In this document: positions 1 to 16,100 of the stretch, in pieces
How the letters are laid out: each line of letters begins with the position of its first letter
How positions within the stretch are numbered: the stretch's first letter is position 1
Source: Chitinophaga polysaccharea
GTDB taxonomy: Bacteria > Bacteroidota > Bacteroidia > Chitinophagales > Chitinophagaceae
Length of the DNA stretch: 64,000 nt
Reading direction: 5' to 3'
NCBI RefSeq assembly: GCF_902150045.1
Contig: NZ_CABFVU010000002.1
Coordinates: 856,001 to 920,000, forward strand
Program-made: the position numbers and the translations under genes
Notes under the pieces: generated by a model
What the model was told of the DNA's origin: nothing
Databases searched by the model: none
What the model saw: the letters and a program-made list of their open reading frames with translations, nothing else

Positions 1-14
1 TGATTTCACACTTT

Positions 15-272
15 ATGGACACTAGAGAGATAATAACTGTTACGAATAAGTTTCTGGTAGAGGAGTTTGAAGCAAACCCCGCAGCCATCACGCCTGAAGC
101 AAACATGAAATCCACGCTGGATCTGGACAGCCTGGATTATATCGACATGGTGGTAGTGATAGAAGATAACTTCGGATTTAAAGTAAAACCGGAGGAATTC
201 CAGGCTATTGTTAGCTTCCAGGATTTCTACAACTATGTAGCCACTCGTGTACAACAAAAAGAACTGGTATAA
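15..272 (+). CDS. Acyl carrier protein (first of two in the pigment cluster)
   Basis: Small acidic 85-residue carrier protein. The phosphopantetheine attachment motif DLDSLD is visible with Ser39 as the modified serine, and the length is normal for a discrete ACP. It would carry the growing acyl chain as a thioester in the cytoplasm and would need activation by the phosphopantetheinyl transferase at 20194. Its stop codon shares one base with the ATG of the following acyltransferase (TAATG), so the two are translationally coupled. The ATG at 15 is the only reasonable start. Upstream genes of the operon are probably outside the window. Family call is firm; which step it serves is inferred. Confidence 0.93.
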   Translation: MDTREIITVTNKFLVEEFEANPAAITPEANMKSTLDLDSLDYIDMVVVIEDNFGFKVKPEEFQAIVSFQDFYNYVATRVQQKELV

Positions 273-1147
273 TGCCTTCCTGGCAAGGAAAGTCTAAAGG
301 GAATAAGTTCGGATATAGTTGTTTTGTTTTCCTGTTGAAACATGGAGGGGTAGCACCGGCGTATCTGTTGCTGAAGTTTGTGGCCTTCTATTTTTTTGCG
401 TTTTCCTGGAGTTCCTCAAAACCTGTCTATCATTATTTCCGTACCAAAATCGGCTACAGCCGCGGGCGCGCATTGCTCAGTTTATACCGGAATTATCATG
501 TATTTGGCCAAACACTGATCGATAAGGTAGTGGTAATGGCAGATATGTCCAATAAATTCACTTTTGAATTTGAGGGTGAACATTATTTACGCGAAATGAT
601 TGCCGGCGGCAAAGGCGGCATCCTGCTAAGCGCTCATGTGGGCAACTGGGAAGTAGCCGGTCATTTGTTCAAGCGCCTGCAAACCCGTATCAATATAGTG
701 ATGTTCGACGGAGAGCACCAGCGTGTAAAGGACTATCTCTCCGGTGTTACGGGCGACCGTAATATGAATATTATCGTGATCAAGGATGACCTTTCGCACA
801 TTTATGCCATCAATGAAGCATTAAGTAACAAGGAGCTGGTGTGTATGCATGCCGACAGGTTCCTGCCAGGCAATAAAACAATAACGGCTCCTTTTTTAGG
901 ACAGGATGCACGTTTCCCGGTAGGGCCCTTCCTGCTGGCTGCCACTTTCCGGGTACCGGTTTCCGTGGTATTCGCCTTCAAGGAATCATCTACCCATTAT
1001 CATTTTTTTGCCACTGAACCCCGTTTATACCACGGCCGGCGTAACCAGGGCGTAGAAACAGCCCTGCAGGATTTTGTACAGCATGTAGAAGAAAAAGTAT
1101 ACCGTTACCCGGTGCAATGGTTCAATTATTACGACTTTTGGGAATAA
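272..1147 (+). CDS. LpxL/HtrB-like lysophospholipid acyltransferase family protein
   Basis: A 291-residue protein with an N-terminal hydrophobic stretch (about residues 26-46) and the acyltransferase motif H-x4-E in HVGNWE (His122, Glu127), as in lipid A acyltransferases of the LpxL/HtrB family. It should act at the inner face of the cytoplasmic membrane and transfer an acyl chain from an ACP to a hydroxyl. It overlaps the preceding ACP gene by one base, which suggests that ACP as donor. In a flexirubin locus the plausible job is forming the ester between polyene acid and dialkylresorcinol, or attaching the polyene to a lipid. That role is inferred from context only. Confidence 0.85.
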   Translation: MPSWQGKSKGNKFGYSCFVFLLKHGGVAPAYLLLKFVAFYFFAFSWSSSKPVYHYFRTKIGYSRGRALLSLYRNYHVFGQTLIDKVVVMADMSNKFTFEFEGEHYLREMIAGGKGGILLSAHVGNWEVAGHLFKRLQTRINIVMFDGEHQRVKDYLSGVTGDRNMNIIVIKDDLSHIYAINEALSNKELVCMHADRFLPGNKTITAPFLGQDARFPVGPFLLAATFRVPVSVVFAFKESSTHYHFFATEPRLYHGRRNQGVETALQDFVQHVEEKVYRYPVQWFNYYDFWE

Positions 1148-1217
1148 ATGCGTGTTTTTACTGTTAATAATTTCGTATAATTCTATTTATTTCGTGTTTC
1201 ATTTTTAATAATAACTT

Positions 1218-1649
1218 GTGCAGATGTTTATTCATTCAGACGATATTACCGCCTATATTCCCCAGCGTACGCCCATAGTGATGATCAGTGGCATCCTGGA
1301 AGTAAATGGTCCTGTAACGCGCACTGGCCTGCACATCGCCGCAGATAATATTTTTGTGGAGAACGGCGTGCTCACCGCCCCTGGCCTGATGGAAAATATT
1401 GCACAAACCGCCGCTGCCCGCATCGGCTATATCGCCAAACAGCAAAATACACCCGTTCCCCTGGGATTTATTGGCGCTGTAAAAGACCTGGAAATACTGG
1501 AACTGCCGCCGGCAGGGCAAATGATAGAAACCACCACCGAAATCGGTGCTGAAGTATTCAATGCTACTATGGTAACCGGCAAAGTAATGTTTGAAGGCCG
1601 CCTGATGGCACAATGCGAATTGAAAATATTTACCAATCCCCAAATTTAA
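1218..1649 (+). CDS. ApeP/FabZ-like hot-dog 3-hydroxyacyl-ACP dehydratase, lacks the catalytic His
   Basis: 143 residues from a GTG start (an ATG six bases later is equally possible). The central-helix segment APGLMENIAQT aligns with the FabZ segment PGVLILEAMAQ and keeps the acidic residue (Glu59). The FabZ GHFPG motif carrying the catalytic His is absent: that position reads FVENG. The same layout is found in ApeP-type dehydratases of aryl polyene clusters. Together with the hot-dog protein at 11577, which has the His but not the Glu, it could form a composite active site. It would dehydrate 3-hydroxyacyl-ACP intermediates during polyene extension. A 70-base gap precedes it, with no clear promoter box. 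Confidence 0.8.
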   Translation: MQMFIHSDDITAYIPQRTPIVMISGILEVNGPVTRTGLHIAADNIFVENGVLTAPGLMENIAQTAAARIGYIAKQQNTPVPLGFIGAVKDLEILELPPAGQMIETTTEIGAEVFNATMVTGKVMFEGRLMAQCELKIFTNPQI

Positions 1650-1655
1650 TCACAC

Positions 1656-2408
1656 ATGAACTGCAGAAAATTAATTGCACTTCCGTTGCTGATGTTGAGC
1701 ATGATGACCATGACCGCGAATGCTCAAACGCTTAAAAACTTCCTGGAGAACAAAGATTCTTCCTTTACCTGGCTGGGTGTGGATTTTACACAAGCCAGGC
1801 TGCTTGGCGACGCCGCTGCCAAAACAGATGCCATCGTAGACCATGAGTTCACTGCCCTTAACCAGGTAATTGTGAACGAACAAAAGAAGTATGATGTACC
1901 AGGCGCCTTTCACCGGGATAAATACAATACCAGTATTGGTTTGGTGAACAAACGCAATGAAGCCATCAATGGAGATGCACTGAAATCTGATGAATCTTCC
2001 GACTTTGAACGTCTTAAACCGGAAGACATTACCAAAGTGGTGAAATCGTACGATTTTTCCGGAAAACACGGAATTGGCGTAATGCTGGTAATGGAAGGCA
2101 TGAGCAAAACCACCAAAAGCGCCTCTATGTGGCTGACCATTGTAGACATGGACCGGAAAAATGTACTGCTTACAGAACGTTACATTGGTAAAGGCCAGAA
2201 ATGGAGCTTCGCATGGCGCAACTATTGGCTCGCCACCATTAAGAGCGTACTGGATGATATCGACGACGACTACAACAAACTGAAAACCAAATACGCCGAT
2301 GCCAAAGACCCCGAAGATCCAAAACCGGTAGTAGCAGCACCTGCAGCAAAGAAAGAAACCAAAGCCACTACAGCACCGGCAGCAAAGAAACCAAAGAAGA
2401 AAGGATAA
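1656..2408 (+). CDS. Exported protein of unknown function with Ala/Lys-rich tail
   Basis: 250 residues. The first 23 form a clear signal peptide (MNCRK, hydrophobic core, cleavage near ANA/Q). The last 35 or so residues are low-complexity, rich in Ala, Lys and Pro, with repeated PAAKK units, which suggests binding to a negatively charged surface or disorder. I do not recognise the central domain. It lies between the dehydratase and the thioesterase with spacers of only 4-6 bases, so it is part of the pigment operon and probably works in the periplasm during export or assembly. No catalytic motif is apparent. Confidence 0.75.
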   Translation: MNCRKLIALPLLMLSMMTMTANAQTLKNFLENKDSSFTWLGVDFTQARLLGDAAAKTDAIVDHEFTALNQVIVNEQKKYDVPGAFHRDKYNTSIGLVNKRNEAINGDALKSDESSDFERLKPEDITKVVKSYDFSGKHGIGVMLVMEGMSKTTKSASMWLTIVDMDRKNVLLTERYIGKGQKWSFAWRNYWLATIKSVLDDIDDDYNKLKTKYADAKDPEDPKPVVAAPAAKKETKATTAPAAKKPKKKG

Positions 2409-2412
2409 ATTT

Positions 2413-2832
2413 ATGATACTGACTGAATGCACCAACATACTGATTAGATTCAATGAAGCAGATCCGCTGGGAATAGTATGGCACGGGCATTATGTGCGGT
2501 ATTTTGAAGACGGCAGGGAAGCTTTCGGTGAAAAATACGGGCTCAGATACCTGGATATTTCTGACGAAGGATTCACTGTACCGGTAGTAAATGTACAATG
2601 TGATTACAAACGCTCCTTACGCTATGGCGACAGGGTGGTGGTAGAGACAAAGTATATCGACGACCTGGCAGCAAAAATAAAATTTGAATACATCCTTACC
2701 AATCCTGCCACCGGGGAAATAGTAGCAAAGGGCTCTTCTGTACAGGTATTCCTGGACAAGGAAACTTCGTCCCTGCAACTGATCACCCCTCCCTTTTTCA
2801 TGGAATGGAAAAGAAAGCACGGACTGGTATAA
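2413..2832 (+). CDS. 4-hydroxybenzoyl-CoA thioesterase family (YbgC-like) acyl thioesterase
   Basis: 139 residues, normal for a single hot-dog thioesterase. The N-terminal segment IRFNEADPLGIVWHGHYVRY matches the YbgC/4HBT signature, with the acidic residue of NEADPLG at the catalytic position and the conserved WHGHY turn. It would hydrolyse an acyl-ACP or acyl-CoA thioester, either releasing the finished polyene acid or editing stalled chains. Such a thioesterase is a regular member of aryl polyene and flexirubin clusters. It follows the exported protein by 4 bases and precedes a ketosynthase by 12. Confidence 0.88.
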   Translation: MILTECTNILIRFNEADPLGIVWHGHYVRYFEDGREAFGEKYGLRYLDISDEGFTVPVVNVQCDYKRSLRYGDRVVVETKYIDDLAAKIKFEYILTNPATGEIVAKGSSVQVFLDKETSSLQLITPPFFMEWKRKHGLV

Positions 2833-2844
2833 CCAAAGGGTATT

Positions 2845-3990
2845 ATGCAACAGGTGTATGTAGTAGCAGATAATATTGTGGGGCCTCTTGGCAGTACTAC
2901 CCGGGAAAATTTTGACCAGGTGTTATCTGCCAACAGTGGCATAGCGCAGCATAACAATGCCGCCTATGCCGCTGCTCCGTTTTATGGCGCTATCACAGCG
3001 CCTGAACAACTGGAAGCCTTTACGGCGCATATTAACGTAAATGGATATACGCGGTTTGAGAAACTGCTGGCTGCTTCGGTGCAATCGGCCCTGCAGCAAA
3101 CCGCTATTACGCTTACGGATGCCCGCACCGGCTTTATTATTTCCACTACCAAGGGAAATATTGAATTGCTGGAGCAGCAGCCGGAAGGCATGGCAGCACC
3201 GGTGAAAGACATGCAGCTGTACGCTACAGCAAAAAAAATGGCGGCACATTTTAATGCAGTCAATGAACCACTGGTGATCAGCAGCGCCTGTATCTCAGGG
3301 CTGGTAGCCATTTTAACGGGTAAGCGGCTGATCCGGTCAGGACGCTACGATCATGTGGTAGTTACCGGCGGGGATGTGCTCACCCGCTTTGTATTGTCAG
3401 GGTTTCAGTCGTTCCAGGCAGTAAGCGCCGTTCCCTGTAAGCCCTTCGATGCCAACCGGACGGGCGTTACACTCGGAGAAGGCGCGGCCACCGTAATACT
3501 CAGCCGGGAAAAAGGCAATGCCTCTTTCTCGCTGGGCGAGGGCGCCATCAGCAATGATGCCAACCATATTTCCGGCCCTTCCCGCACCGGTGAAGAACTG
3601 GCGGCAGCCATACAACTTGCGCTGAAAGGAAGCGGGCTAACTGCTGCAGACATAGGGTTTGTTTCTGCACACGGCACCGCTACCCTGTATAACGACGAAA
3701 TGGAAGCAAAAGCGCTGCATCACGCAGGGCTGGCCAATGTACCGGTAAACAGCCTGAAAGGCAACTACGGTCATACCCTGGGCGCTGCCGGTCTTATAGA
3801 AGCCATTATCAGCATGCATGCCATGAAGGCGGGCGTAATATTGCCAACAAAAGGATTTGAAGTACCCGGTGTAAGTATGCCGGTGAATGTTCATAACACC
3901 CTGCTGCAGAAAACATCCCGTCATTTCCTGAAAACAGTTTCAGGTTTCGGTGGATGTAATGCAGCTATGGTCTTTAATCTTAACAGCTAA
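2845..3990 (+). CDS. Beta-ketoacyl-ACP synthase (FabF-like), catalytically complete
   Basis: 381 residues with the full ketosynthase triad: Cys149 in ISSACISG, His276 in SAHGTAT and His310 in GNYGHTLGAAG. It should catalyse decarboxylative Claisen condensation of malonyl-ACP with the acyl chain. It is somewhat shorter than FabF (about 410) and divergent at the N-terminus, as is usual for aryl polyene ketosynthases. Its immediate neighbours are a thioesterase and a methyltransferase, not its own chain-length partner, so it may act as a homodimer in starter extension or in a different round from the KS at 7270. That division of labour is inferred. Confidence 0.9.
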   Translation: MQQVYVVADNIVGPLGSTTRENFDQVLSANSGIAQHNNAAYAAAPFYGAITAPEQLEAFTAHINVNGYTRFEKLLAASVQSALQQTAITLTDARTGFIISTTKGNIELLEQQPEGMAAPVKDMQLYATAKKMAAHFNAVNEPLVISSACISGLVAILTGKRLIRSGRYDHVVVTGGDVLTRFVLSGFQSFQAVSAVPCKPFDANRTGVTLGEGAATVILSREKGNASFSLGEGAISNDANHISGPSRTGEELAAAIQLALKGSGLTAADIGFVSAHGTATLYNDEMEAKALHHAGLANVPVNSLKGNYGHTLGAAGLIEAIISMHAMKAGVILPTKGFEVPGVSMPVNVHNTLLQKTSRHFLKTVSGFGGCNAAMVFNLNS

Positions 3991-4004
3991 ACAAAGTTAT
4001 TGTC

Positions 4005-5066
4005 GTGTTTAATAAAGAAACAAAAACAGCACTCGAAGCAAAAGAAGCTGCATTACGCCTGGCATTTGCCCCGGTTGCTTTCCAGGCCACCAGGGCATTA
4101 CGGGATATGGGCATTTTAACAGCTGTGAGCAACAGCCGTTCTGCCGGTATCACCATTGAAGAAATAATGGAACAAACAAAATTGTCGCGTTATGCTGTGA
4201 GAGTGCTGCTGGAAGCCGGTTTAGGCATGGAACTGGTGATCGTGAACGACAAACGTTACACCCTTACCAAAACAGGTTACTTTATTCTGCACGATCCCCT
4301 TACCCGCATCAACATGGACTTTTCACAGGATATCTGCTACAAAGGCATGAATCACCTGCAGGAAAGTTTAAGAGAAGGAAAACCCGCCGGTTTACGTGAA
4401 CTGGGCCCCTGGGATACCATTTACCCGGGCCTGTCGCTGCTGCCGCCTGAAGTAGGCAAAAGCTGGTTCGATTTCGACCATTACTATTCAGACCTTGCCA
4501 CTCCGCAGGCGCTGGATATTGTTTTTGAAAAGAAACCCAAACGTTTGCTCGATATAGGCGGTAACACAGGCAAGTGGGCCCTGGCCTGCACCGCAAAAGA
4601 TCCGGAAGTGGAAGTAACCATCTTCGACCTGCCGGGTCAGGCCGGACTGGCACAGCAGAAAATGAAGGATGCCGGTGTGGAAAACCGTGTGCATTTCCAT
4701 ATTGCCAATATACTCCACGAGGAAGTGCCCTTCCCGCAAGGCTTTGATGCCATCTGGATGAGCCAGTTCCTGGATTGTTTCTCTGAAGCAGAAATTGTTT
4801 CCATTCTGAAACGTTGCCGGGAAGCGCTGAACGAAGGAGGTACGGTTTATATCCTGGAGCCTTTCTGGAACCGCCAGCAGTTTAAGTCCGCCGCTTTCTG
4901 CCTGCAGCAAACGTCCCTGTACTTTACGGCTATGGCCAATGGCAACAGCCAGATGTACCATACAGATGATTTCTTCCAATGCATTGAGGATGCCGGTTTG
5001 GCTATCATCGAGGAAAATGACCAGATGGGCATGAACTATACATTGCTGAAATGTCAGAAAAAATAA
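4005..5066 (+). CDS. SAM-dependent methyltransferase with winged-helix dimerisation domain
   Basis: 353 residues from a GTG start. The N-terminal ~100 residues look like a winged-helix dimerisation domain (segment ITIEEIMEQTKLSRYAVRVL), followed by a class I Rossmann methyltransferase domain with motif I LLDIGGNTGKWA and the acidic post-I segment TIFDLPG. This is the architecture of plant-type O-methyltransferases and related C-methyltransferases. Flexirubin carries a methyl group on the terminal phenyl ring, so an aromatic methylation before or after polyene assembly is the natural hypothesis. It sits directly upstream of the halogenase-like flavoprotein, another candidate ring-tailoring enzyme. 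Whether the acceptor is carbon or oxygen cannot be read from the sequence. Confidence 0.85.
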   Translation: MFNKETKTALEAKEAALRLAFAPVAFQATRALRDMGILTAVSNSRSAGITIEEIMEQTKLSRYAVRVLLEAGLGMELVIVNDKRYTLTKTGYFILHDPLTRINMDFSQDICYKGMNHLQESLREGKPAGLRELGPWDTIYPGLSLLPPEVGKSWFDFDHYYSDLATPQALDIVFEKKPKRLLDIGGNTGKWALACTAKDPEVEVTIFDLPGQAGLAQQKMKDAGVENRVHFHIANILHEEVPFPQGFDAIWMSQFLDCFSEAEIVSILKRCREALNEGGTVYILEPFWNRQQFKSAAFCLQQTSLYFTAMANGNSQMYHTDDFFQCIEDAGLAIIEENDQMGMNYTLLKCQKK

Positions 5067-5107
5067 ACCCAATCCCATTAAATCTATAACGCCCAAAATC
5101 GTCACTT

Positions 5108-6364
5108 ATGAAAACTGAGCAAGTTGATGTACTGGTAATAGGAGCAGGTCCGGCAGGAACAGTAGCGGCATCTATTATTCATCAGGCAGGCTACAATGTA
5201 AAAGTGGTGGAGAAACAGAAATTTCCCCGCTTTGTAATAGGCGAAAGCCTGTTGCCACGTAGCATGGAAGCACTGGAAGAAGCCGGCTTTATTGATGCTA
5301 TTAAAGCAAAAGGTTTTCAGCAGAAGTCGGGGGCGAAGTTTGTAAAGGGCAACGCACTCTGTGACTTTACTTTCCAGGAACAATTTACACCAGGCTGGAC
5401 CTGGACCTGGCAGGTAACGCGTGCCGATTTTGATAAAACACTGGCCGATACGGTAGAAAGCATGGGTGTGCCGGTGGCGTATGAAACAACAGTAACGGAT
5501 ATACGTTTCAATGGATCCGATTCCATTACAACAGTAGAAGATAAAGATGGTCAGCAATCACAGATAGCCGCCCGCTTCATCGTAGATGGCAGCGGCTATG
5601 GCAGGGTGATCCCGAAATTATTCAACCTGGAGAAAAACTCCAACCTGCAACCCCGCAAGGCGCTGTTCGCACATACCGTGGATGCACGCCGTTCCATGGC
5701 AGATGAACCTAACCGCATCACTGCGGTGGTACATAAAAAGGGCGTATGGATCTGGATCATTCCTTTCGCTACGGGGATCACCTCCCTGGGCTTTGTGGGA
5801 GACCCGGAATTTTTTGAAGAATATCCCGGCACCGATGAAGAGAAATACCGTGCCCTGCTGGAAGCAGAGCCCTATACCAGGGAACGTTTCCGCGATGTGG
5901 AGCTGGTATTTGAGCCCAGGATACTGCAGTCGTGGTCGGCCACTACAGATAAATTTTACGGAGACGGGTTTGTGCTGACAGGCAACGTAACAGAATTTCT
6001 GGACCCGATTTTCTCTTCTGGTGTAACTTTGGCCTGTGTTTCATCACAAACAGCCGCAAAACTGGTGATCCGGAAACTGAAAGGAGAGGACGTAGACTGG
6101 GAAAAAGAGTACATGGAGCCTACCATGCAGGGCGTGAATACCTTCCGCTCTTATGTAATGGCCTGGTACGAAGGCACCCTGGATACCATTTTCTTTAAGA
6201 AAGATGCGGATCCGCTGATCAAAGGACAGATCTGTTCGGTATTGGCGGGTTATGTGTGGGATATGAACAATCCCTTTGTGAAAAATCATGACACGGCATT
6301 GAAACGCCTGGCCAGGACCATTGAATTAACAGAAAAATTAAAAAGCAACCCGGAGATTGAATAG
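5108..6364 (+). CDS. FAD-dependent halogenase-like oxidoreductase
   Basis: 418 residues. Visible motifs: Rossmann FAD-binding GAGPAG (residues 12-17), the flavin-dependent halogenase signature WxWxIP (WIWIIP, residues 214-219), and the FxxPxxSxG motif (FLDPIFSSG, residues 297-305) found in halogenases of the tryptophan/phenol class. Lysines at 73 and 77 lie roughly where these enzymes keep their active-site lysine, but I could not align them. It may chlorinate or hydroxylate the phenolic ring, probably on an ACP-bound intermediate; it needs a separate flavin reductase. Chlorinated flexirubins are known from this bacterial group. The next gene starts within its last 8 bases. Confidence 0.85.
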   Translation: MKTEQVDVLVIGAGPAGTVAASIIHQAGYNVKVVEKQKFPRFVIGESLLPRSMEALEEAGFIDAIKAKGFQQKSGAKFVKGNALCDFTFQEQFTPGWTWTWQVTRADFDKTLADTVESMGVPVAYETTVTDIRFNGSDSITTVEDKDGQQSQIAARFIVDGSGYGRVIPKLFNLEKNSNLQPRKALFAHTVDARRSMADEPNRITAVVHKKGVWIWIIPFATGITSLGFVGDPEFFEEYPGTDEEKYRALLEAEPYTRERFRDVELVFEPRILQSWSATTDKFYGDGFVLTGNVTEFLDPIFSSGVTLACVSSQTAAKLVIRKLKGEDVDWEKEYMEPTMQGVNTFRSYVMAWYEGTLDTIFFKKDADPLIKGQICSVLAGYVWDMNNPFVKNHDTALKRLARTIELTEKLKSNPEIE

Positions 6365-6980
6365 CGGATCGACATATATTACAGGAAGTTGCATCATACG
6401 GCAAAACAAGGTGTTCTTAAACGGTGCTTTGTTATGGGAGGCGGATCCCGCGTTGGAATTAGCGGGCTTTCTGCGGGCAGGATATGATCATTTTTCCGGG
6501 CAGTATCCCAAATTCCATAAAATGGATGCGCTTAGCAAACTGGGCTGGCTGGCAGCGGAAGTATTGCTGAAAGACACAGCCATTCATTTGCTGGCGCCTG
6601 AACAAACAGGCATGGTATTATCCAACCGGAGCAGCAGCCTGGATACCGACCTGCGCTATTATGCCACGGTAAAGGAATTTGCCAGCCCCGGGCTGTTTGT
6701 ATACACCCTGCCAAATATTGTGATGGGAGAGATCTCTATCCGGCATGGTTTTAAAGGAGAGAATACTTTTTTTGTGTCAGATATTTTTGATACGGATTTA
6801 ATGAGCGCCTATCCTGCGCAGCTGCTTGCAGAAACGCCTTTGCAGGCTTGTATTTGCGGGTGGGTAGAAGTAATGGACCAACAGTACGAGGCGGCATTAT
6901 TCCTCGTGGAAAATAAACAGCGAGACAATGGCATACCGTTAACAGCGGCGGCTTTGTCTTCACTATACCAACAAAAATAA
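6357..6980 (+). CDS. Short ketosynthase-like protein without active-site Cys
   Basis: 207 residues, about half a ketosynthase. It starts at a TTG that overlaps the end of the flavoprotein gene by 8 bases. The segment TLPNIVMGEISIRHGFKGEN matches the part of KS enzymes just before the nucleophile, but where VSTACASG should follow it reads FFVSDIFDTD, so the Cys is missing. The C-terminal half with both catalytic histidines is also absent. Short KS-like proteins (Ketoacyl-synt_2 type) occur in aryl polyene clusters, so this may be a real non-condensing partner and not a remnant. No frameshift is needed to read it, and an ACP follows it. Confidence 0.75.
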   Translation: MNSGSTYITGSCIIRQNKVFLNGALLWEADPALELAGFLRAGYDHFSGQYPKFHKMDALSKLGWLAAEVLLKDTAIHLLAPEQTGMVLSNRSSSLDTDLRYYATVKEFASPGLFVYTLPNIVMGEISIRHGFKGENTFFVSDIFDTDLMSAYPAQLLAETPLQACICGWVEVMDQQYEAALFLVENKQRDNGIPLTAAALSSLYQQK

Positions 6981-7006
6981 CAGTTAATAACTTTAATCAA
7001 ATTACA

Positions 7007-7273
7007 GTGGAAAAGTTGATGGCGGATCTGAAAGCGCAGATCATAGAACAATTGAACTTGCAGGAAGTAGCACCGGACAGTATTGGTAACGATCAGCCGT
7101 TGTTTACAAAGGAAGGGCTTGGGCTCGATTCTATCGATGCGCTGGAATTGATCGTATTGCTGCAACAGCATTATAACATCCGCATTGCCAATCCTGATGA
7201 AGGACCAAAGATCTTCCACTCGGTACGTACCATGGCAACGTACATCACCGAAAATCAAACCATAAAGGCATGA
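7007..7273 (+). CDS. Acyl carrier protein (second)
   Basis: 88 residues from a GTG start (in-frame ATG 12 bases later). The phosphopantetheine motif is GLGLDSIDALE with Ser42 modified. It shares little with the first ACP outside this motif, so the two are probably specialised, for example one for the aromatic starter and polyene and one for another acyl chain. Its stop overlaps the ATG of the next ketosynthase (ATGA), which points to translational coupling and to this ACP serving the KS/CLF pair downstream. Confidence 0.93.
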   Translation: MEKLMADLKAQIIEQLNLQEVAPDSIGNDQPLFTKEGLGLDSIDALELIVLLQQHYNIRIANPDEGPKIFHSVRTMATYITENQTIKA

Positions 7274-8466
7274 GTGAAAAGGTGTGGATAGCAGGTGGCG
7301 GGGTGATCAGTGGTATCGGGCTGGATATACCGGCCTGTATACAGTCGTTCCGGGATATGACACCGGGTATGACGGCTATGCAGCACCTCTCTTCTGTGCA
7401 TCGTAATACATTTCCGGTTGCAGAAGTAAAGGCAGATAACGCTACCCTTGCGGATATAGCGCGGATGCCGGAAAACATCAGCCGCACGGCCCTGCTCAGT
7501 ATGATTGCGGCCCGTGAAGCCTGGCAGTCCAGCGGACTGGGAGATATTTCCCAGTACCGGGTAGGATTTGTTTCCGGTAACACAGTGGGAGGTATGGATA
7601 AAACGGAAGACTTTTTCGCTGCGTATCTGTCTGACCCCCGTGGTGGCCGCCTTCAAAACCTGGTGCATCATGAATGCGGCAGCATTACCGAACTGGTGGC
7701 CGACAGCCTGGGCGTACGGCATCACATCTCTACCATCAGCACCGCCTGTTCATCCGGCGCCAATGCCCTGATGTATGGTTCCCGGCTTATCCGCAATAAT
7801 ATTGTGGATGTGGTGATCGCCGGCGGTACAGATGCCCTTACCCGTTTTACGCTTAATGGGTTCAACACGCTCATGATCCTGGATCAGCAACTCTGCCGGC
7901 CATTTGATGACACCCGCACCGGGCTTAATCTTGGCGAGGGCGCCGGTTATGTAGTACTGGTATCGGACAGCCTGGCAGCCCGTTTGCAGCCATGGTGCCG
8001 CCTTAGCGGCTTTGCCAATGCCAATGATGCTTTTCACCAAACGGCCTCTTCGCCGGATGGCACGGGTAATTACCTGGCTATGAAAGGCGCGCTGGATATG
8101 AGCGGACTGCAACCACAGCAAATTGGTTATATTAATTTACACGGCACCGGTACACAGAATAATGATGTATCGGAAGGAATCGCTATAAACCGGCTCTTTG
8201 CGCCGCATTTCCCGGCCATGAGCTCCACCAAATCTTTCACCGGTCATACGCTGGGCGCCAGCGGTGGCATAGAAGCCGTATTTTCGGCGCTGGCGGTGAA
8301 GGAAGGAATTATTTACCCGAATGCGCGCTTTGAGCACCAGATGAAGGAATTACCGTTTGCACCCGTTACCGCCTTTTCTACAGGTCATGACCTGCAACAT
8401 GTAATGTCCAATTCATTCGGATTTGGCGGTAATTGTTCCAGCCTGGTATTTTCAAGGGCCAGTTAA
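7270..8466 (+). CDS. Beta-ketoacyl-ACP synthase, catalytically complete, KS of a KS/CLF pair
   Basis: 398 residues with a complete Cys-His-His triad: Cys160 in STACSSG, His291 in LHGTGT and His326 in FTGHTLGASGG. Start ATG overlaps the ACP stop by 4 bases. The gene immediately downstream encodes a KS homologue without catalytic residues, the arrangement of type II polyketide KS/chain-length-factor pairs and of the ApeO/ApeC heterocomplex in aryl polyene synthesis. It is the best candidate for the iterative polyene-extending condensing enzyme. Cytoplasmic. Confidence 0.92.
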   Translation: MSEKVWIAGGGVISGIGLDIPACIQSFRDMTPGMTAMQHLSSVHRNTFPVAEVKADNATLADIARMPENISRTALLSMIAAREAWQSSGLGDISQYRVGFVSGNTVGGMDKTEDFFAAYLSDPRGGRLQNLVHHECGSITELVADSLGVRHHISTISTACSSGANALMYGSRLIRNNIVDVVIAGGTDALTRFTLNGFNTLMILDQQLCRPFDDTRTGLNLGEGAGYVVLVSDSLAARLQPWCRLSGFANANDAFHQTASSPDGTGNYLAMKGALDMSGLQPQQIGYINLHGTGTQNNDVSEGIAINRLFAPHFPAMSSTKSFTGHTLGASGGIEAVFSALAVKEGIIYPNARFEHQMKELPFAPVTAFSTGHDLQHVMSNSFGFGGNCSSLVFSRAS

Positions 8467-8478
8467 CAGCTATAAATT

Positions 8479-9543
8479 ATGCATATCTATATAAATGGCA
8501 CCGGTTGTATTTCTCCGCAGGAAACTGCGCTGGGAGGCCCTTTGCTGGCCACTCCCAGGGAATATGAACAGGTACGCCTGGCCACGGTGGATCCGGATTA
8601 CAAACAATGGATCGATGTGAAACAGATCCGCAGGATGAGCCGCGTGGTAAAAATGGGGGTAGGCGCCGCCAGCCTGAGCCTGGAAGCCGCCGGCATTACC
8701 GCTCCCGACGCTATCATTACCGGCACCGCATACGGCTGCCTGGATGATACCGGTGTGTTTCTTACCAAAATGGTAAACCAGCAGGAGGAAATGCTTACGC
8801 CTACTGCATTCATACAAAGCACTCACAACACCGTGGCCGGCCAGATCGCCCTGCTGCTGGGTTGTAACGGGTATAACAACACTTTCGTTCACCGCGGCTT
8901 TTCCTTTGAAAATGCCCTGCTGGACGCTATCATGATACTGAAAGAAGGATCGGCAAAAAATATTCTTGCCGGCGGAGTGGATGAGATCACCAATCATAGT
9001 TTCCAGCTATTGTCGCGTTTCGGCCTTTATAAAAAGACGCCGGTAAAAACGATGGAACTGCTGAACAGTCCTTCCAGGGGCACTATTGCAGGGGAAGGCG
9101 CCGCTTTTTTTACTCTGGGTATTACCAAACAACCCGGTGCTGTGGCGGAATTGTCCGGCGTGAGCACATTATACAAACCATTGTGGGAAGGAGAAGTGAT
9201 CGGCCACATTATGAAGTTCCTGGAAGATAACAATTGTACCCCTGCAGATATCGACCTGATCGTTACCGGCAGGAACGGAGATATTGACCAGGATGAGATT
9301 TATGAAGAAGTAGCGGAAGCCTTGTTCCCTGATCACGCGGAAGCGAGCTTTAAGCACCTTTGCGGTGAATATCCTACGGCGGCATCATTTGGCGTATGGA
9401 TGGCCAACGCGGTTATCGCACAGCAGGAAGTACCCGAAGCGGCCGTGTTTTTCGGCGCAGCTCCTGAAAAAATAAAGAAAGTATTAGTCTATAATCATCA
9501 CCAGGGAACACATCACTCCCTGGTACTACTCACCGCATGTTAA
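8479..9543 (+). CDS. Ketosynthase-like chain-length-factor protein, no catalytic residues
   Basis: 354 residues with the KS fold recognisable at the N-terminus (INGTGCISPQ, then GTAYGCLDDTG and STHNTVAGQIAL). The nucleophile segment reads NTFVHRGFSFENA in place of VSTACASG, so no Cys. The HGTGT motif is replaced by VTGRNGDID and the GHTLGA histidine region by LCGEYPTAASFG. All three catalytic residues are therefore gone, as in chain-length factors. It directly follows the complete KS at 7270 and would pair with it to set polyene length. The last 7 bases overlap the deacetylase gene. Confidence 0.85.
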   Translation: MHIYINGTGCISPQETALGGPLLATPREYEQVRLATVDPDYKQWIDVKQIRRMSRVVKMGVGAASLSLEAAGITAPDAIITGTAYGCLDDTGVFLTKMVNQQEEMLTPTAFIQSTHNTVAGQIALLLGCNGYNNTFVHRGFSFENALLDAIMILKEGSAKNILAGGVDEITNHSFQLLSRFGLYKKTPVKTMELLNSPSRGTIAGEGAAFFTLGITKQPGAVAELSGVSTLYKPLWEGEVIGHIMKFLEDNNCTPADIDLIVTGRNGDIDQDEIYEEVAEALFPDHAEASFKHLCGEYPTAASFGVWMANAVIAQQEVPEAAVFFGAAPEKIKKVLVYNHHQGTHHSLVLLTAC

Positions 9544-10316
9544 ATAACCGGGTTGTAAATATCGTAGCTGTAATCACTCTCCTGGCACTCCTGTTCCTGG
9601 ATAAGGTAATGGCGTATGGTATTTCCTTCTGGTGGTATGGCCTGCCGGTGCTCATCTTCCTTCCGGTTACCGTTTATGGCGCGATGAATATTGAATCAGG
9701 CTTCTTCCTGAAGGTACGTTGTGAAGCGGATACCACGGAAAAAGTAGTGGCGCTTTCTTTCGACGACGGGCCACAAGAGGCTTTTACACCGGAAATACTG
9801 GATATCCTCCACAGGGAGCAGGTACCTGCCGCTTTTTTTTGTATCGGGAAGAATATCAAAGGCAATGAGCACTTACTGAAACGGATATACGACGAAGGTC
9901 ATGTAATAGGCAACCATACCTATTCGCATCACTTCTGGTTCGATATGAAGCTGTCTGGTAATATGCTGAAAGATATGCAACAGATGGATGCGCTCACGGT
10001 AGGAGCTACAGGACTGCATCCGCGCCTGTTCCGACCGCCCTATGGCGTTACCAATCCCAACCTGGCAAGGGCAGTGAAAGCAGGTAATTACCTGCCCGTA
10101 GGCTGGAATATACGCTCGCTGGATACGGTAGCAAAGGATGGAACAGCTTTATTGCACCGCATCCTGGCGCAACTGAAACCAGGCGCCGTGATTTTACTGC
10201 ATGATACCTGTAAAATTACTGCTGATATACTCCCGCAGCTGATCCGGGGGATCCGTGAAAAAGGATACCAGCTGGAGAGAATTGATAAAATGTTAAACGT
10301 ACGTGCATATGTGTAA
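9537..10316 (+). CDS. Membrane-anchored polysaccharide deacetylase (NodB-like, CE4)
   Basis: 259 residues. Two hydrophobic segments (about 8-24 and 31-48) precede a NodB domain with all hallmarks: FDDGP (residues 75-79, catalytic base Asp76 and metal Asp77), HTYSH metal ligands (His127, His131), RPPYG (166-170) and a late LLHD. It should therefore be a metal-dependent N- or O-deacetylase facing the periplasm. Its substrate in a pigment cluster is unclear: a glycosylated or acetylated pigment precursor, or the cell surface that receives the pigment. It starts inside the CLF stop region and overlaps the LolA-like gene. Confidence 0.88.
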   Translation: MLNNRVVNIVAVITLLALLFLDKVMAYGISFWWYGLPVLIFLPVTVYGAMNIESGFFLKVRCEADTTEKVVALSFDDGPQEAFTPEILDILHREQVPAAFFCIGKNIKGNEHLLKRIYDEGHVIGNHTYSHHFWFDMKLSGNMLKDMQQMDALTVGATGLHPRLFRPPYGVTNPNLARAVKAGNYLPVGWNIRSLDTVAKDGTALLHRILAQLKPGAVILLHDTCKITADILPQLIRGIREKGYQLERIDKMLNVRAYV

Positions 10317-10941
10317 ATGGCTGTTAATTTTGATGGGTTGTGTGATAAGCCTGCAAATACAGGCGCAGTCCGGTTTTAAGCCGGTAGGGGATATGGCGCC
10401 GCTGAAGCAGCAGTTTGCAAAAGCCGCCCAGCACACGCAAAGTATCCAGTGCGATTTTGTACAGGAGAAGAACCTGAGCATGTTATCCGACAAAATTGTA
10501 TCTAAAGGAAAGTTCTGGTTTAAGAAAGATAATAAAGTAAGAATGGAATATCTCCAGCCTTCTTATTATTTGCTGGTGATCAACGGGAAAGATATCCGTA
10601 TCAAAGATGCGCAGAAAGAAAATAAAGTATCGGGGAAGAATAATAAACTGTTTGAACAGATCAATAAAATTACGGTCGACTGTGTAAGAGGAACCGTGCT
10701 GGATAACGCTGATTTTTCCGTGAAGGCGGCTGAAAACAGCCAGTACTACCGCCTGGAGCTTACGCCGGTGAACAAGGTAATGAAGGAATATTTTCAAACT
10801 ATCATACTGTTGGTGGATAAGCAGGATTACTCAGTATCAAAAATTACGATGACGGAACAATCAGGCGATGATACCACTATCAGTTTCTTACATAAACAAC
10901 TGAATACAAATATCCCCGATGCGGTATTTTCTGCTAAGTAG
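10309..10941 (+). CDS. LolA-like outer-membrane lipoprotein carrier protein
   Basis: About 210 residues with a signal peptide (MCKWLLILMGCVISLQIQAQ) followed by a LolA-type half-barrel: early QSIQCDFVQEK, then GKFWFKKDNKVRMEYLQPS, the usual strand pattern of LolA. I chose the ATG at 10309; a GTG at 10303 is also in frame. LolA shuttles lipid-modified cargo across the periplasm. A dedicated copy in aryl polyene and flexirubin clusters is known and would move the hydrophobic pigment, or the lipoprotein encoded next, to the outer membrane. Both ends overlap neighbouring genes. Confidence 0.88.
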   Translation: MCKWLLILMGCVISLQIQAQSGFKPVGDMAPLKQQFAKAAQHTQSIQCDFVQEKNLSMLSDKIVSKGKFWFKKDNKVRMEYLQPSYYLLVINGKDIRIKDAQKENKVSGKNNKLFEQINKITVDCVRGTVLDNADFSVKAAENSQYYRLELTPVNKVMKEYFQTIILLVDKQDYSVSKITMTEQSGDDTTISFLHKQLNTNIPDAVFSAK

Positions 10942-11542
10942 CCTGTTGGCAACAGTGATGCTGATGGCGGGCTGCCGGTCGGTATATAAAGGGTTACAGC
11001 CTGTAAACGGGGATGTGAACTGCATCAGGCAGTTCAGTCCGCAATTTACCTCTACGCTGTACAGCACCCAGGTGGATATCCTGAAGCATCACCTGAGCGG
11101 GCTGCTGTTTTTTAAGCAGATGCCCGACAGTAGCATCCGGGTGGTATTTGCCAACGAAATGGGATTTAAGTTCTTTGATTTTGAATTTGATAAACAGGGC
11201 AATTTCACTAAACACTACCTGATGGCCAAAATGGACAAAAAGGCGGTGGTGAAAACATTACAGCAGGATTTTGCATTGGTATTACTGCGGCCTGATCTGC
11301 AGCAGGCGCATGCAGCTACGGATAACCATTACCGTTATATAGTAGTGCCCACTGAAAAAGGGAACAACTATTATATCACGGATACCACCTGTACAAAGCT
11401 GGTCCGGATAGAGAAGTCGTCGCGCCGCAAACCCGCTGTTACCGTATGGATGCAGCACTACAGCAATGGCGTGCCGGATACCATCCGGATCCGTCATGAG
11501 CATTTCAAATTCAATATTTCATTGCAGAAGGTAGAAAAGTAA
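10919..11542 (+). CDS. Small lipoprotein of the pigment export group
   Basis: 207 residues with a lipoprotein signal peptide; lipobox MAGC puts the lipidated Cys at residue 19. It overlaps the 3' end of the LolA-like gene by 23 bases, a strong sign of co-translation. The mature part is rich in short beta-type segments, and I see no enzyme motif. Lipoproteins next to a LolA homologue are typical of aryl polyene clusters (DUF3261-type lipoproteins), but I cannot assign this one to that family by eye. A LolB-like acceptor role at the outer membrane is a reasonable inference. Confidence 0.78.
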   Translation: MRYFLLSSLLATVMLMAGCRSVYKGLQPVNGDVNCIRQFSPQFTSTLYSTQVDILKHHLSGLLFFKQMPDSSIRVVFANEMGFKFFDFEFDKQGNFTKHYLMAKMDKKAVVKTLQQDFALVLLRPDLQQAHAATDNHYRYIVVPTEKGNNYYITDTTCTKLVRIEKSSRRKPAVTVWMQHYSNGVPDTIRIRHEHFKFNISLQKVEK

Positions 11543-11576
11543 ATACGTCAACATAATTATATAATCACATCGTCCA

Positions 11577-11936
11577 ATGTTAGCAGGAAATTTTTATACT
11601 GTCACCTCGCAATCCCGGGAAGCCGGGCAGGTGGCTGTCACCATCGAACTGAATGCGGCACATCCTATATTCCAGGGGCATTTCCCGGAGCAGCCTGTAG
11701 TGCCTGGCGTATGCATGATGCAAACCATTACAGAAGTACTGGAAAGCGCATTGGACAAGAAAGTGAGGCTGAAAAAAGCCAGCCAGATGAAGTTCCTGAA
11801 CATGATTGACCCAACAAAACAACCGCTGGTAGATGTTACGCTCACTTATAAGGAAGAGGAAGGCGGATGGAAAGTGAATGCTACACTGAAGCGCGACGAC
11901 AAAACATTTATGAAGTTCCAGGGTATATTCAATTAA
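11577..11936 (+). CDS. FabZ/ApeI-like hot-dog dehydratase, catalytic Glu replaced by Gln
   Basis: 119 residues, a single hot-dog domain. The FabZ motif is well kept as GHFPEQPVVPGV with catalytic His35. Fourteen residues later, where FabZ has its acidic residue (LILEAMAQ), this protein has Gln49 in CMMQTITE. It is therefore the mirror image of the dehydratase at 1218, which has the Glu but no His. In hot-dog dehydratase dimers the His and the acidic residue of one active site come from different subunits, so these two proteins may work as a heterodimer, as reported for ApeI with ApeP. Its stop abuts the GTG of the glycosyltransferase. Confidence 0.83.
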   Translation: MLAGNFYTVTSQSREAGQVAVTIELNAAHPIFQGHFPEQPVVPGVCMMQTITEVLESALDKKVRLKKASQMKFLNMIDPTKQPLVDVTLTYKEEEGGWKVNATLKRDDKTFMKFQGIFN

Positions 11937-13130
11937 GTGACCAGCCAGCCTACACATAACGAACATTTTGAGCGTCACCGCGCTGCGGTGCTTATTCCTA
12001 CGTATAATAACGCGGGAACACTGGGCAATGTATTGTCGGACGTACTGACTTATACCAGTCATGTGATAGTGGTGAATGACGGTGCCACCGACGAAACAGC
12101 CGCAGTGCTGGAGCAGTTCCCCTCCCTGCAGTTAGTGTCGTATAGCCCTAACCGTGGTAAGGGCATCGCCCTGCGCCGTGGCTTCGCTTATGCATTGCAG
12201 CAGGGGTACGACTATGTGATCACGATGGATGCCGACGGGCAGCACTTTGCTACCGACCTGCCTGCTATGCTGCAACAGATCGCGGAAAAGCCGGGCGCCC
12301 TCGTAATAGGCGCCCGTAACCTGCACCAGGAGAACATGCCCGGTAAAAGTACCTCCGCCAATAAGGTATCCAATTTCTGGTTCCAGGTAACTACCGGGTT
12401 GAAAGGGCCCGATACGCAATCGGGCTACCGTTTGTATCCCTTGCGTCGCATGGGAAATATGCATTACTTCTGCACCAAATACGAATTTGAGATAGAGGTA
12501 TTGGTACGCAGCGCCTGGAAAGGTATTAAAATAGACTGGACACCCGTGCGGGTGTACTATCCGCCACCGGAAGAACGGGTATCCCATTTCAGGCCGGTGA
12601 GGGACGTTTCCCGTATCACTGTACTGAATACGGTATTGGTACTGGTTACCTTTTTATATATCAAGCCCCGCGACCTGGTCCGTTTTCTTTTAAAAAAAGA
12701 GAACTGGAAAAAGATGTGGAAAGAAGAAGTGCTGAAGTCTGATGAATCCAATATCAGGAAAGCAGCCGCCATTGGCTTTGGTATTTTTATGGGAATAGTG
12801 CCCATCTGGGGATTCCAGCTGCTGGTATCTATCCTGCTGTCTATTAAATTCAAACTGAATAAAGCACTGGTGCTGCTTTTTGCGCATATCAGCACACCAC
12901 CGCTTACGCCTTTCGTGATCTTTGCCAGTTTCCTGGCTGGCCGGGTATGGATGGGACAAACCGCCAAAGACCTGGTATTCTCCAACGGCATTACCTTCGA
13001 CACCATCAGGGATAACCTGTTGCAATATGTATTTGGCAGTATTACCCTGGCAGTAACCGGAGGCTTACTGGCCTGGTTGATCAGCTGGGCAATACTGGCA
13101 ATTTTTAGAAAAGAACAGAAAAATGGGTAA
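11937..13130 (+). CDS. Glycosyltransferase family 2 fused to DUF2062
   Basis: 397 residues from a GTG that directly follows the preceding stop. The N-terminal ~240 residues form a GT-A domain of the DPM1 type: VVNDGATDET (45-54) and the metal-binding DADGQH (98-103). The last ~130 residues are hydrophobic and match DUF2062 (segment MGIVPIWGFQLLVS and STPPLTPFVIFA). It would use a nucleotide sugar or polyprenyl-linked donor at the inner leaflet. This GT2-DUF2062 fusion recurs in aryl polyene and flexirubin clusters, where it may glycosylate the lipid anchor. It overlaps the exporter gene by 8 bases. Confidence 0.9.
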   Translation: MTSQPTHNEHFERHRAAVLIPTYNNAGTLGNVLSDVLTYTSHVIVVNDGATDETAAVLEQFPSLQLVSYSPNRGKGIALRRGFAYALQQGYDYVITMDADGQHFATDLPAMLQQIAEKPGALVIGARNLHQENMPGKSTSANKVSNFWFQVTTGLKGPDTQSGYRLYPLRRMGNMHYFCTKYEFEIEVLVRSAWKGIKIDWTPVRVYYPPPEERVSHFRPVRDVSRITVLNTVLVLVTFLYIKPRDLVRFLLKKENWKKMWKEEVLKSDESNIRKAAAIGFGIFMGIVPIWGFQLLVSILLSIKFKLNKALVLLFAHISTPPLTPFVIFASFLAGRVWMGQTAKDLVFSNGITFDTIRDNLLQYVFGSITLAVTGGLLAWLISWAILAIFRKEQKNG

Positions 13131-16100
13131 TCTATTTGTAGCGATCTATAACTTTTTTGAACAGCGTAAAGCATGGATGTGGTGTTGCACCATTGCCAGT
13201 TTTCTGCTGGTAGGTTATTTTGCCGCACAAATAAAGCTGGAAGAAGATATTACCAGAATTTTGCCGCAGGATAAGAAACTGGATAAACTGCAACAGGTGT
13301 TCCAGGATTCAAGATTTGCGGACAAACTGATCATTACCATCTCCCAAAAAGATACCTTAAAGGAAGCGCAACCTGATAGTTTAACCGCTTATGCAGCGGC
13401 ATTAAGCACCAGGGCCGGCGCACAGTTGTCGCCCTATATCAGGCAGATCCAATCGCAAACAGACGACGCCATGATCATGGGATTAATGCAGGTGATACAG
13501 CAACACCTGCCCGTTTTCCTGGAAGCAAATGATTATGCAAAGATCGATAGTTTGCTGACACCCGGGCAACTGCAGCAATCTTTACAGTACGATTATAATA
13601 CGCTGATATCACCAGCCGGACTGGTGCTGAAGAAAATGATCCAGGCCGATCCGGTTGGCATTGCCTGGATAGGCGTAAAGAAGCTGCAGCACCTGCAATA
13701 CGACGACCAGTTTGAACTGTACGATAACTACATCATCACCAAAGATCATAAACACCTGATGATCTTTATTACGCCTGCCAATCCGCCAGGCGCTACAAAA
13801 ATAAACGCGCAGTTCCTGAAAGGGCTTGACAATATTAAAGATACCCTGGATCAGCAGTATCCGGGAATTGCTGCTTCCTGGTTTGGCGGCACCGCCGTTT
13901 CTGTAGGCAATGCCACGCAGTTAAGACAGGACACTTTTCTCACACAAGGTATCACGATAGTATTACTGATTGTATTGATCGCGTTGTTTTTTAAGAAGAA
14001 GAGAGCGCCGGTGCTGGTGATGCTGCCGGTAATTTTCGGCGGCCTGTTCTCACTGGCATGGATATACTTGATCAAAGGCCACATTGCTGTGATGGCACTG
14101 GGCGCCGGCGCTGTGGTGCTGGGTATTGCAGTGAACTATTCCCTGCATGTGTTTAACCATTACCGCCACTCGCATGATATCCGTGAAGTGATCAGCGACC
14201 TGGCCACGCCTATGACGCTGGGAAGCTTTACCACCATCGGAGGTTTTCTCTGTTTGCAGTTTGTGCATTCGCCTATGCTGAAAGATGTGGGATTGTTCGC
14301 CGCACTCAGCCTGGTAGGAGCCGCGTTGTTTTCACTGATCTTCCTGCCGCACTGGATTGTAATGGGAAGAAAGCCAGCTGCTGTAAATACGCAGCATCAC
14401 AACTGGCTCGATAAACTATCCGCGCTCCGGCCCGAGAAAAATAAATACCTGGTGAGCGCTATTTTCCTGCTCACAATTATATTTTTTTATACCGCGCGTA
14501 ACGTATCATTTGAAAGTGATATGATGCGCATGAACTATATGACGCCGGAATTAAAAACGGCGGAAGCGCAGCTGAACAGTGTGAACTCCTACGTGGCGCA
14601 GTCTGTTTACGTGGTATCCGACGGCCCGAACCTGGAAGGAGCGCTGGAAAACGGGGAGCGGCTGATGCCGGTTATCAGCCAGTTACAGGATAAAGGTATT
14701 GTGAAGAAGTACGCCGGCGTACAGGCGTTACTGTTATCCGCCCGGGAACAGCAGGCCCGTATTAACCGTTGGAATAATTACTGGACGGCCGATAAAAAGC
14801 AGCAGCTGTTGCAATACCTCCGCAGGGAAGGTAGTACGCTGGGCTTTAGCGCATCTGCATTTGATCCGTTCGAAAGGTTGGTCAACAGCAACTTCCAGCC
14901 GCTTGAGCCGGAGGCGTTAGAAACATTACGCAGCGGTAACCTCGGCGATTTTATTATAGAGAAGAACGGGACTACGTCAGTAGTGACCCTGCTGAAAGTA
15001 GATCCATCCCATAAACAGGCAGTATATGATGCGCTGGAAAAATTACCCGGCACCACCGTGCTGGATAAACAATATGCTGCAAACCGCCTGGTAGAAGTAG
15101 TGAAAGATGAGTTCAACAGCATTGCCTGGATGACATCCCTGCTGGTGTTCTTCGCATTGTTGCTATCATACGGCCGTATTGAACTGGCGCTGATCACCTT
15201 TATCCCCATGGCGGTGAGCTGGATATGGATACTGGGTATTATGGGCCTGTTTGGCATTAAATTCAATATTGTAAATATCATCCTGTCTACTTTTATTTTT
15301 GGTTTGGGAGATGATTACAGCATCTTTATGATGGATGGGCTGTTGCAGGAATACAGAACAGGAAAGAAGACACTTTCTTCCTTTAAATCATCCATCTTCC
15401 TGTCGGCCATCACTACCATTTTAGGACTGGGCGTGCTCATTTTTGCACAGCACCCTTCGCTGAGATCCATTGCGCTGATCTCTATTATTGGCATCGGAAC
15501 AGTGGTGCTGATCTCGCAGGTGATGATCCCTTTCCTGTTTAACTGGCTTATTACCGGGCGGGTGCGCAAAGGCTTTGCACCGTGGACTTTCAAGGGATGG
15601 GTGCTCTCTGTATTTTCGTTCACTTATTTCGCAACCGGCAGTTTCCTTCTAACTGCCATTGGCACAGTGCTGATCCGCTGGAACCCTTTTAATAAAGAGA
15701 AAGGAAAGGTATTGTATCACCGCATCCTTTCCGCATACACGCACAGTGTATTGTATATTATGCGCAATGTAAAGAAGCGTATCATCAATCCCTTGAATGA
15801 ACAATTGGAAAAGCCCGCGGTGATCATCAGCAATCACCAGTCGTTCCTCGATATACTCGTGTCTACCATGCTGCATCCTAAAGTGATATTGCTTACCAAC
15901 CAGTGGGTATGGCGCTCACCGGTGTTTGGTGCGGTGGTACGACTGGCAGATTATTACCCCGTAGCAGATGGGGCCGAAGGAGCCATTGAAAAACTGAGAG
16001 AAAGAGTGGCGGCAGGATATTCTATTGTGGTATACCCGGAAGGCACCCGTTCTCCGGACCCGGCTATCAAGCGGTTTCACAAAGGCGCTTTTTATATTGC

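Follow-up and report, generated by a model that had tools for sequence, protein, structure and literature searches.

In the homodimeric dehydratase FabZ, the catalytic His and Glu are contributed by different chains, and a single FabZ chain carries both residues. Dimeric hot-dog enzymes are described as using residues from both subunits in their active sites, with a Glu-His dyad in FabZ (PMC2698920), and the aryl polyene (APE) proteins ApeI and ApeP are described as dehydratases that form a heterodimer with only one active site (PMC8041823). In this pair, solved as the Xenorhabdus ApeI:P heterocomplex (PDB 6QSR; chain 6qsr_A is ApeI and chain 6qsr_B is ApeP), a short subunit bearing the His (ApeI; PF22818) is joined by a longer, His-less subunit bearing the Glu (ApeP; PF22817). 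Other hot-dog heterodimers, HadAB and HadBC of mycobacterial type II fatty acid synthesis and the steroid hydratase ChsH1-ChsH2, pair a catalytic subunit with one that binds the substrate. HadB, for which two alternative partners, HadA and HadC, are described (PMC5902629, PMC11321319), holds its catalytic Asp and His together in one motif. We analyzed a window of 64,000 nucleotides from the 7.6-Mb genome of Chitinophaga polysaccharea (G000:C2:856001-920000), which encodes two hot-dog proteins, FlxF and FlxS, that have the fold and presumed reaction of FabZ in common but, unlike HadB, split the catalytic residues between them, with FlxS corresponding to ApeI and FlxF to ApeP.

Flexirubins are orange marker pigments of the Bacteroidota. 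FlxF and FlxS have been named as dehydratases of the flexirubin pathway of Chitinophaga pinensis, the dehydration step being assigned to these two proteins by annotation only (PMC3992019). The initial annotation of the window had noted complementary active-site residues in the two proteins and suggested, by analogy with an ApeI/ApeP heterocomplex, that a heterodimer of them would have one complete site. The analogy agrees with the heterodimer with one active site described in PMC8041823, and the suggestion gained support from complementary invariant residues, co-occurrence, retention of both genes where they are unlinked, and a chain-by-chain correspondence to 6QSR. We propose that FlxF:FlxS is probably (at roughly 0.8, judging from sequence comparison and predicted structures) an obligate heterodimeric 3-hydroxyacyl-acyl carrier protein (ACP) dehydratase with one composite site that acts in flexirubin polyene synthesis. 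Single-site ApeI/ApeP heterodimers are already known; the extension to flexirubins, the loss of the spare acid and the tandem FlxF copies are new.

Conservation was counted mainly in 132 loci picked by identifier. FlxF residues are counted from a GTG start at 1218; translation might instead begin at an in-frame ATG at 1224, and Glu59 would then be E57. The FlxF segment IFVENGVLTAPGLMENIAQ occupies the place of FabZ FFQGHFPxxPxxPGVLxxEAxAQ, is four residues shorter and lacks GHFPG. Among 182 FlxF open reading frames (ORFs) from 121 loci, E59 and Q63 were invariant (182/182 each) and A62 was kept in 181/182. Q63 lies four residues past E59, like the ExxxQ of FabZ, and the N-terminal stretch of FabZ is kept as well (P15 and P19, 180/182 each). 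No conserved His was detected in aligned columns 44-58, the highest column containing His in 12/182 ORFs. These results confirmed that FlxF, at the coordinates and strand first given for it, has kept the acid and lost the GHFPG His.

FlxS has the opposite outfit, also as originally described from its ORF. The window's FlxS keeps the FabZ GHFP (G34-H35-F36-P37), and in ungapped alignments its Q49 lines up with the Glu of FabZ and the Asp of 6qsr_A. In 123 FlxS ORFs from 123 loci, H35, F36, P37 and G44 were each found in 123/123 and G34 in 122/123, and residue 49 was acidic in 4/123, the window's FlxS not being among them. The possibility that FlxS keeps the acid where FlxF is missing was discarded, as the genomes with an acid-keeping FlxS (G042, G049, G404 and G408) also have FlxF, which in G049 is a contig-edge fragment only. 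FabZ-type proteins, 12 in all and taken from 10 of the same genomes, carried GHF and Glu in one chain in 12/12 cases; 13 loci had been given, and one (L202) was unmatched by the extraction pattern, in which the His position was left free and the acid position could be Glu, Asp, Gln or Asn. FlxF, and FlxS in 119/123 ORFs, do not combine His and acid in one chain in this manner. The losses in FlxF and FlxS are complementary and family-wide, indicating that they are not an accident of one genome.

We examined the co-occurrence of the two genes. Of 395 genomes searched in the phylum, the same 36 gave strong matches to both FlxF and FlxS and none had only one of the two, when sets were compared by eye at a cut that was placed at the E-value gap after the results had been seen (best match per genome up to 1.3e-22, next 1.2e-8, for FlxF; up to 1.6e-17, next 8.3e-8, for FlxS). 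At a cut-off of 1e-3 the counts were 56/395 for FlxF and 298/395 for FlxS, and the extra rows, among the matches listed, were mostly frames of ~150 or 470 amino acids (aa), which we took for FabZ-like proteins and LpxC-FabZ fusions. In the window's genus, which supplied 35 of the 58 other genomes in the search for FlxS relatives, FlxS was present in 36/36 genomes searched and FlxF in 34 of the 35 besides the window's own. In the G400 family (249 genomes), FlxS was found in 56 genomes, and FlxF in 56/56 of these, with the genome sets again compared by eye; the FlxF count for this family was reduced from 59 to 57 by removing G580 and G671, whose sole matches (6.0e-13 and 7.8e-13) lay in frames of 480 and 357 aa.

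The two genes are not always neighbors. In G473, FlxF and FlxS lie more than 1.1 Mb apart on one contig (L219 and L220), and in G075 and G042 (L066 and L107 in the latter) they lie on different contigs, away from the ends. Both genes are kept in these genomes although they are unlinked, and therefore co-retention is not only a by-product of linkage. Both were also present in G054. In G404, G408 and G481 the two genes nearly touch, and in the other loci with both genes they are at least 4 kb apart; they lie on the same strand in 112/112 loci. No natural FlxF-FlxS fusion was found in the frame lengths of the strong matches, the longest of which (221 aa) is too short to contain both proteins.

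AlphaFold2 predicted confident hot-dog folds for both single chains. In VIA-align, the first row for the FlxS model was 6qsr_A (Z 15.8, rmsd 1.9, 110 aligned), tied with 3esi_A (Z 15.2), an ApeI relative by sequence, and the best FabZ chain had a Z of 14.6. The FlxF model matched 6qsr_B with a Z of 19.5 (rmsd 2.0, 138 aligned), and each model thus paired with its own chain of 6QSR. The FlxS model aligned with bacterial FabZ chains only from residue ~11-27 on, the first stretch being missing, and by sequence E. coli ApeI and ApeP differ at the N-terminal stretch as FlxS and FlxF do. Comparison of profiles, built from the FlxF, FlxS and FabZ rows of the tree described below and from all 81 ApeI and all 81 ApeP, gave 97.8% for FlxF-ApeP and 98.0% for FlxS-ApeI, and less than 1% for FlxF-FlxS, FlxF-ApeI, FlxS-ApeP and ApeP-ApeI.

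The Pfam families of the APE subunits capture the flexirubin proteins poorly. The window's FlxS stays below the PF22818 cut-off (17.4 versus 28.5 bits), and the window's FlxF gave no match to PF22817 at E ≤ 1. Among the relatives, PF22818 was matched by 42/58 FlxS at E ≤ 0.01 and PF22817 by 5/72 FlxF at E ≤ 0.1; a PF22817 search gave 0 matches in 6 genomes and also 0 in 14 controls. FlxF and FlxS would so work like the ApeI:ApeP pair yet sit outside PF22818 and PF22817. General family scans returned no MaoC family for FlxF or FlxS; the hydratase 2 motif itself was not scanned.

From these comparisons we infer the physical pairing of FlxF and FlxS, the composite site, its activity and its substrate. 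The two hot-dog folds would pair as in FabZ, and FlxS His35 and FlxF Glu59 would meet at the dimer interface to form the sole working site. The mirror-image site, made of a FlxF without the His loop and FlxS Gln49, would be dead. FlxF:FlxS would dehydrate each 3-hydroxy intermediate after ketoreduction, and a polyene would grow because no enoyl reduction would follow. In evolution, we infer that the His loop of FlxF was lost first and the spare acid later; the FlxS acid would then have faced a dead site and would therefore have been free to change, which fits the Gln, His, Met or Glu found at position 49, and ApeI:ApeP would represent an intermediate state.

The APE proteins were sampled from E. 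coli CFT073 and from the 80 top-ranking ones among 121 loci found. ApeP kept Glu60 and Gln64 in 81/81, and its residue eight before the Glu was variable, with His in 5 of 81. ApeI kept His32 in 81/81. FlxF shares with ApeP the Glu of an ExxxQ without the catalytic His, and FlxS shares with ApeI the conserved GHF, but ApeI also has an acid in 80/81 (Asp in 71, Glu in 9; Asn in 1), at the position where FlxS has Gln. The initial annotation overlooked this acid. Since ApeI keeps its own acid, FlxS is the more strictly half-equipped of the two. In the same sample, a record titled Chryseobacterium sp. 18061 (L143) contained an enterobacterial-type APE locus with an ApeP 71% identical to that of E. 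coli, and a Citrobacter record of similar naming (L135) contained an enterobacterial-type APE locus too; these assemblies are perhaps mislabelled or contaminated. In one Acinetobacter, ApeI is described as joined to ApeH (PMC8041823).

A number of observations weigh against the FlxF:FlxS heterodimer or against its proposed history. The acid of ApeI is unexplained by the dead-site account alone. Gln49 of FlxS is itself nearly constant, which would not be expected from free drift; since Gln is found in 116/123, position 49 is probably held by some other need. Residue 53 of FlxS is acidic in 117/123 and could serve otherwise, and some FlxF have a His elsewhere, at position 16 in 69 of 182 (Gln in 113) or at position 60 in 48 (Asn in 134). 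One genome, G005 (530 contigs), has FlxS only; another, G465 (350 contigs, 84% complete), has FlxF only; and G049, with FlxS and the FlxF fragment, is 57% complete. The conservation and co-occurrence counts come from related genomes and hence are not independent.

The structural and phylogenetic evidence is likewise two-sided. FlxF matches FabZ as well as ApeP (Z 19.6, tied with the 19.5 of 6qsr_B), and Foldseek E-values rank FabZ chains above 6qsr_B (rank 11) and 6qsr_A (rank 13). The profile match to FabZ is as good as that to the APE subunits (FlxF-FabZ, 98.2%; FlxS-FabZ, 98.0%), and therefore the profiles fix which protein resembles which but do not show descent from a common heterodimer. 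A tree was built from 98 rows: 29 of 94 FlxF and 27 of 74 FlxS, reduced by an identity filter, hand-picked sets of 15 from the 81 ApeI and 15 from the 81 ApeP, and 12 FabZ. It joined FlxF with ApeP (99/94); the result carries a long-branch warning, and the bootstrap had not settled. The same tree left FlxS and ApeI apart, and a FlxS+ApeI clade was not rejected (p 0.459).

Glu53 raises the possibility that FlxS works alone as a homodimer in which Glu53 (or Gln49) replaces the usual acid and FlxF is an accessory. Residue 53 lies on the same predicted helix (44-59) as residue 49, and FlxS passes the FabA-like Pfam cut-off (36.6 versus 23 bits). However, five FlxS (L105, L220, L238, L239 and L252) lack an acid at 49 and also at 53, where they have Asn or Gln, the FlxS model lacks the first stretch of bacterial FabZ, and FlxF, with its invariant Glu59, is nearly always present. 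We consider a FlxS homodimer unlikely.

An arrangement not to be expected of a simple 1:1 pair is the presence of two FlxF per one FlxS in 56 of the 112 loci with both genes, in a sample that leans on one family through genome choice. FlxF duplication in many flexirubin-type loci sets them apart from ApeI:ApeP, and is unexplained by the FlxF:FlxS heterodimer. A second FlxF copy is present in 24 of the first 70 loci that contain FlxF (L079-L081, L083-L089 and L091-L104). Glu59 and Gln63 are found in both copies and the GHFPG His in neither, and the order of the copies is constant: residues 59-60 are Glu-His in the upstream copy of 22/24 loci and Glu-Asn in the downstream copy of 24/24. These distinct signatures would suit a different working unit in the tandem lineages, such as FlxF1:FlxF2 or two alternative FlxS:FlxF dimers. 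Such a unit is doubtful as an alternative, given that FlxF1:FlxF2 would have no complete site because neither copy has the GHFPG His, and that the window's genome and 34 others of its genus have a single FlxF match each. Within the heterodimer model, FlxS might serve as the common partner of FlxF1 and FlxF2, so that two composite-site dehydratases would exist as alternatives, one perhaps acting in early and the other in late rounds of elongation. This tentative idea recalls the partner swap of HadB. HadA and HadC, however, give HadB its substrate pocket only, whereas the FlxF partners would give half of the catalytic residues.

Dehydration could also be carried out by the housekeeping FabZ or a second FabZ-like protein, with FlxF and FlxS doing something else, for example isomerisation or polyene binding. 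The window's genome has a FabZ domain within a 473-aa frame, interpreted by us as LpxC-FabZ, as well as a FabZ-like protein of 146 aa; His and Glu are intact in both. But both catalytic residues are strictly kept in FlxF and FlxS. E. coli, as an APE host, has FabA and FabZ. Deletions of its APE core genes mostly abolish the pigment, and the exceptions listed in the text of PMC8253772 do not include apeI or apeP. A division of labor of this kind is thus very unlikely. The 146-aa protein (L201; G000:C1:3235903-3236193) lies elsewhere in the window's genome and counts as its second stand-alone FabZ-like protein.

If FlxF:FlxS is mutually obligate, neither subunit working alone, this would explain why clusters keep both genes. 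The pair would then be a clean case of the passage from a homodimer to an obligate heterodimer, in which one site is kept and the other decays, and rebuilding the flexirubin pathway in a host would need co-expression of FlxF and FlxS. Annotation should read neither protein as a complete FabZ. The word heterodimer is absent from the main text of PMC3992019, supplement aside. In a literature search that left most subscription journals uncovered, no paper joined flexirubin, dehydratase and heterodimer, and PMC3992019 alone had FlxF or FlxS with flexirubin.

The features of the window are listed in Table 1.

Table 1. Coordinates of FlxF, FlxS, their key residues and cluster landmarks in the window
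Feature	Position	Strand	Evidence
flxD (by gene order), acyl carrier protein, possible substrate carrier	15..272	+	family match
FlxF, hot-dog dehydratase homologue, 143 aa	1218..1649	+	AlphaFold2 mean pLDDT 92.5, conservation
FlxF residues 48-56, place of FabZ GHFPG, motif absent	1359..1385	+	alignment
Glu59 codon of FlxF (candidate catalytic acid, composite site)	1392..1394	+	Glu in 182/182 ORFs
FlxJ-family methyltransferase, cluster marker	4005..5066	+	NF053543, 548.2 bits, slightly below the curated cut-off of 560
flxM (by gene order), second carrier-protein ORF	7007..7273	+	size, position, motif
FlxS, hot-dog dehydratase homologue, 119 aa, without the first FabZ stretch	11577..11936	+	AlphaFold2 mean pLDDT 95.2
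His35 codon of FlxS (candidate catalytic His, composite site)	11679..11681	+	His in 123/123 ORFs
FlxS Gln49 codon, aligned with Glu of FabZ and Asp of ApeI	11721..11723	+	Q 116, E 4, H 2, M 1 (n=123)
FlxS Glu53 codon (possible alternative acid), four residues after Gln49	11733..11735	+	E 112, D 5, N 4, G 1, Q 1 (n=123)

The plus-strand ORFs from 15 to 21875 are separated by short gaps or overlap between assigned genes, which fits one putative operon. Promoter-like matches in 1-13000 were near chance (19 found versus 18.3 expected), as were terminator-like matches in the same region (18 found versus 14.7 expected, standard deviation 3.6). By sequence, these genes appear to represent the flxD-flxY part of a flexirubin cluster, with the flx letters given by gene order; flxA-flxC would fall outside the window. 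The order from flxD to flxH reads ACP, LpxL-type acyltransferase, FlxF, FlxG (no family) and thioesterase. It continues with a ketosynthase, the FlxJ-family methyltransferase, a halogenase-like flavoprotein, a half-size ketosynthase and the putative second carrier protein, which we assign from its size, position and a motif. Two more ketosynthase-like proteins, a deacetylase, LolA, FlxR and FlxS are next, and FlxS is followed by a glycosyltransferase, an MMPL exporter fusion, a flavin oxidoreductase, an AAT-type acyltransferase, a phosphopantetheinyl transferase and an AMP-binding ligase. The functions found in the positions published in PMC3992019 are the ACP, the acyltransferase, the two dehydratase homologues, the thioesterase, the ketosynthases, LolA, the glycosyltransferase, the MMPL exporter and the AMP-binding ligase. 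The C. pinensis cluster described there is of the same kind and gene order as the window's, and its FlxF and FlxS are likened to ours by cluster and gene order.

Three further features of the cluster were observed. FlxL (6357-6980) is a half-size ketosynthase homologue of 207 aa, comparable to the aryl polyene chain length factor, described as having 211 residues (PMC12664062). FlxN (7270-8466) matches 6qsp_A (E 3.3e-52), and FlxL gave no strong match to solved structures (best E 0.049); FlxL and FlxN may constitute a second APE-like heterodimer. A single ORF of 1291 aa (13123-16998) joins MMPL exporter, acyltransferase and methyltransferase domains, and the protein encoded at 5108-6364 is flavin-dependent halogenase-like, matching the CmlS model with an E of 4.1e-52, far under the curated cut-off.

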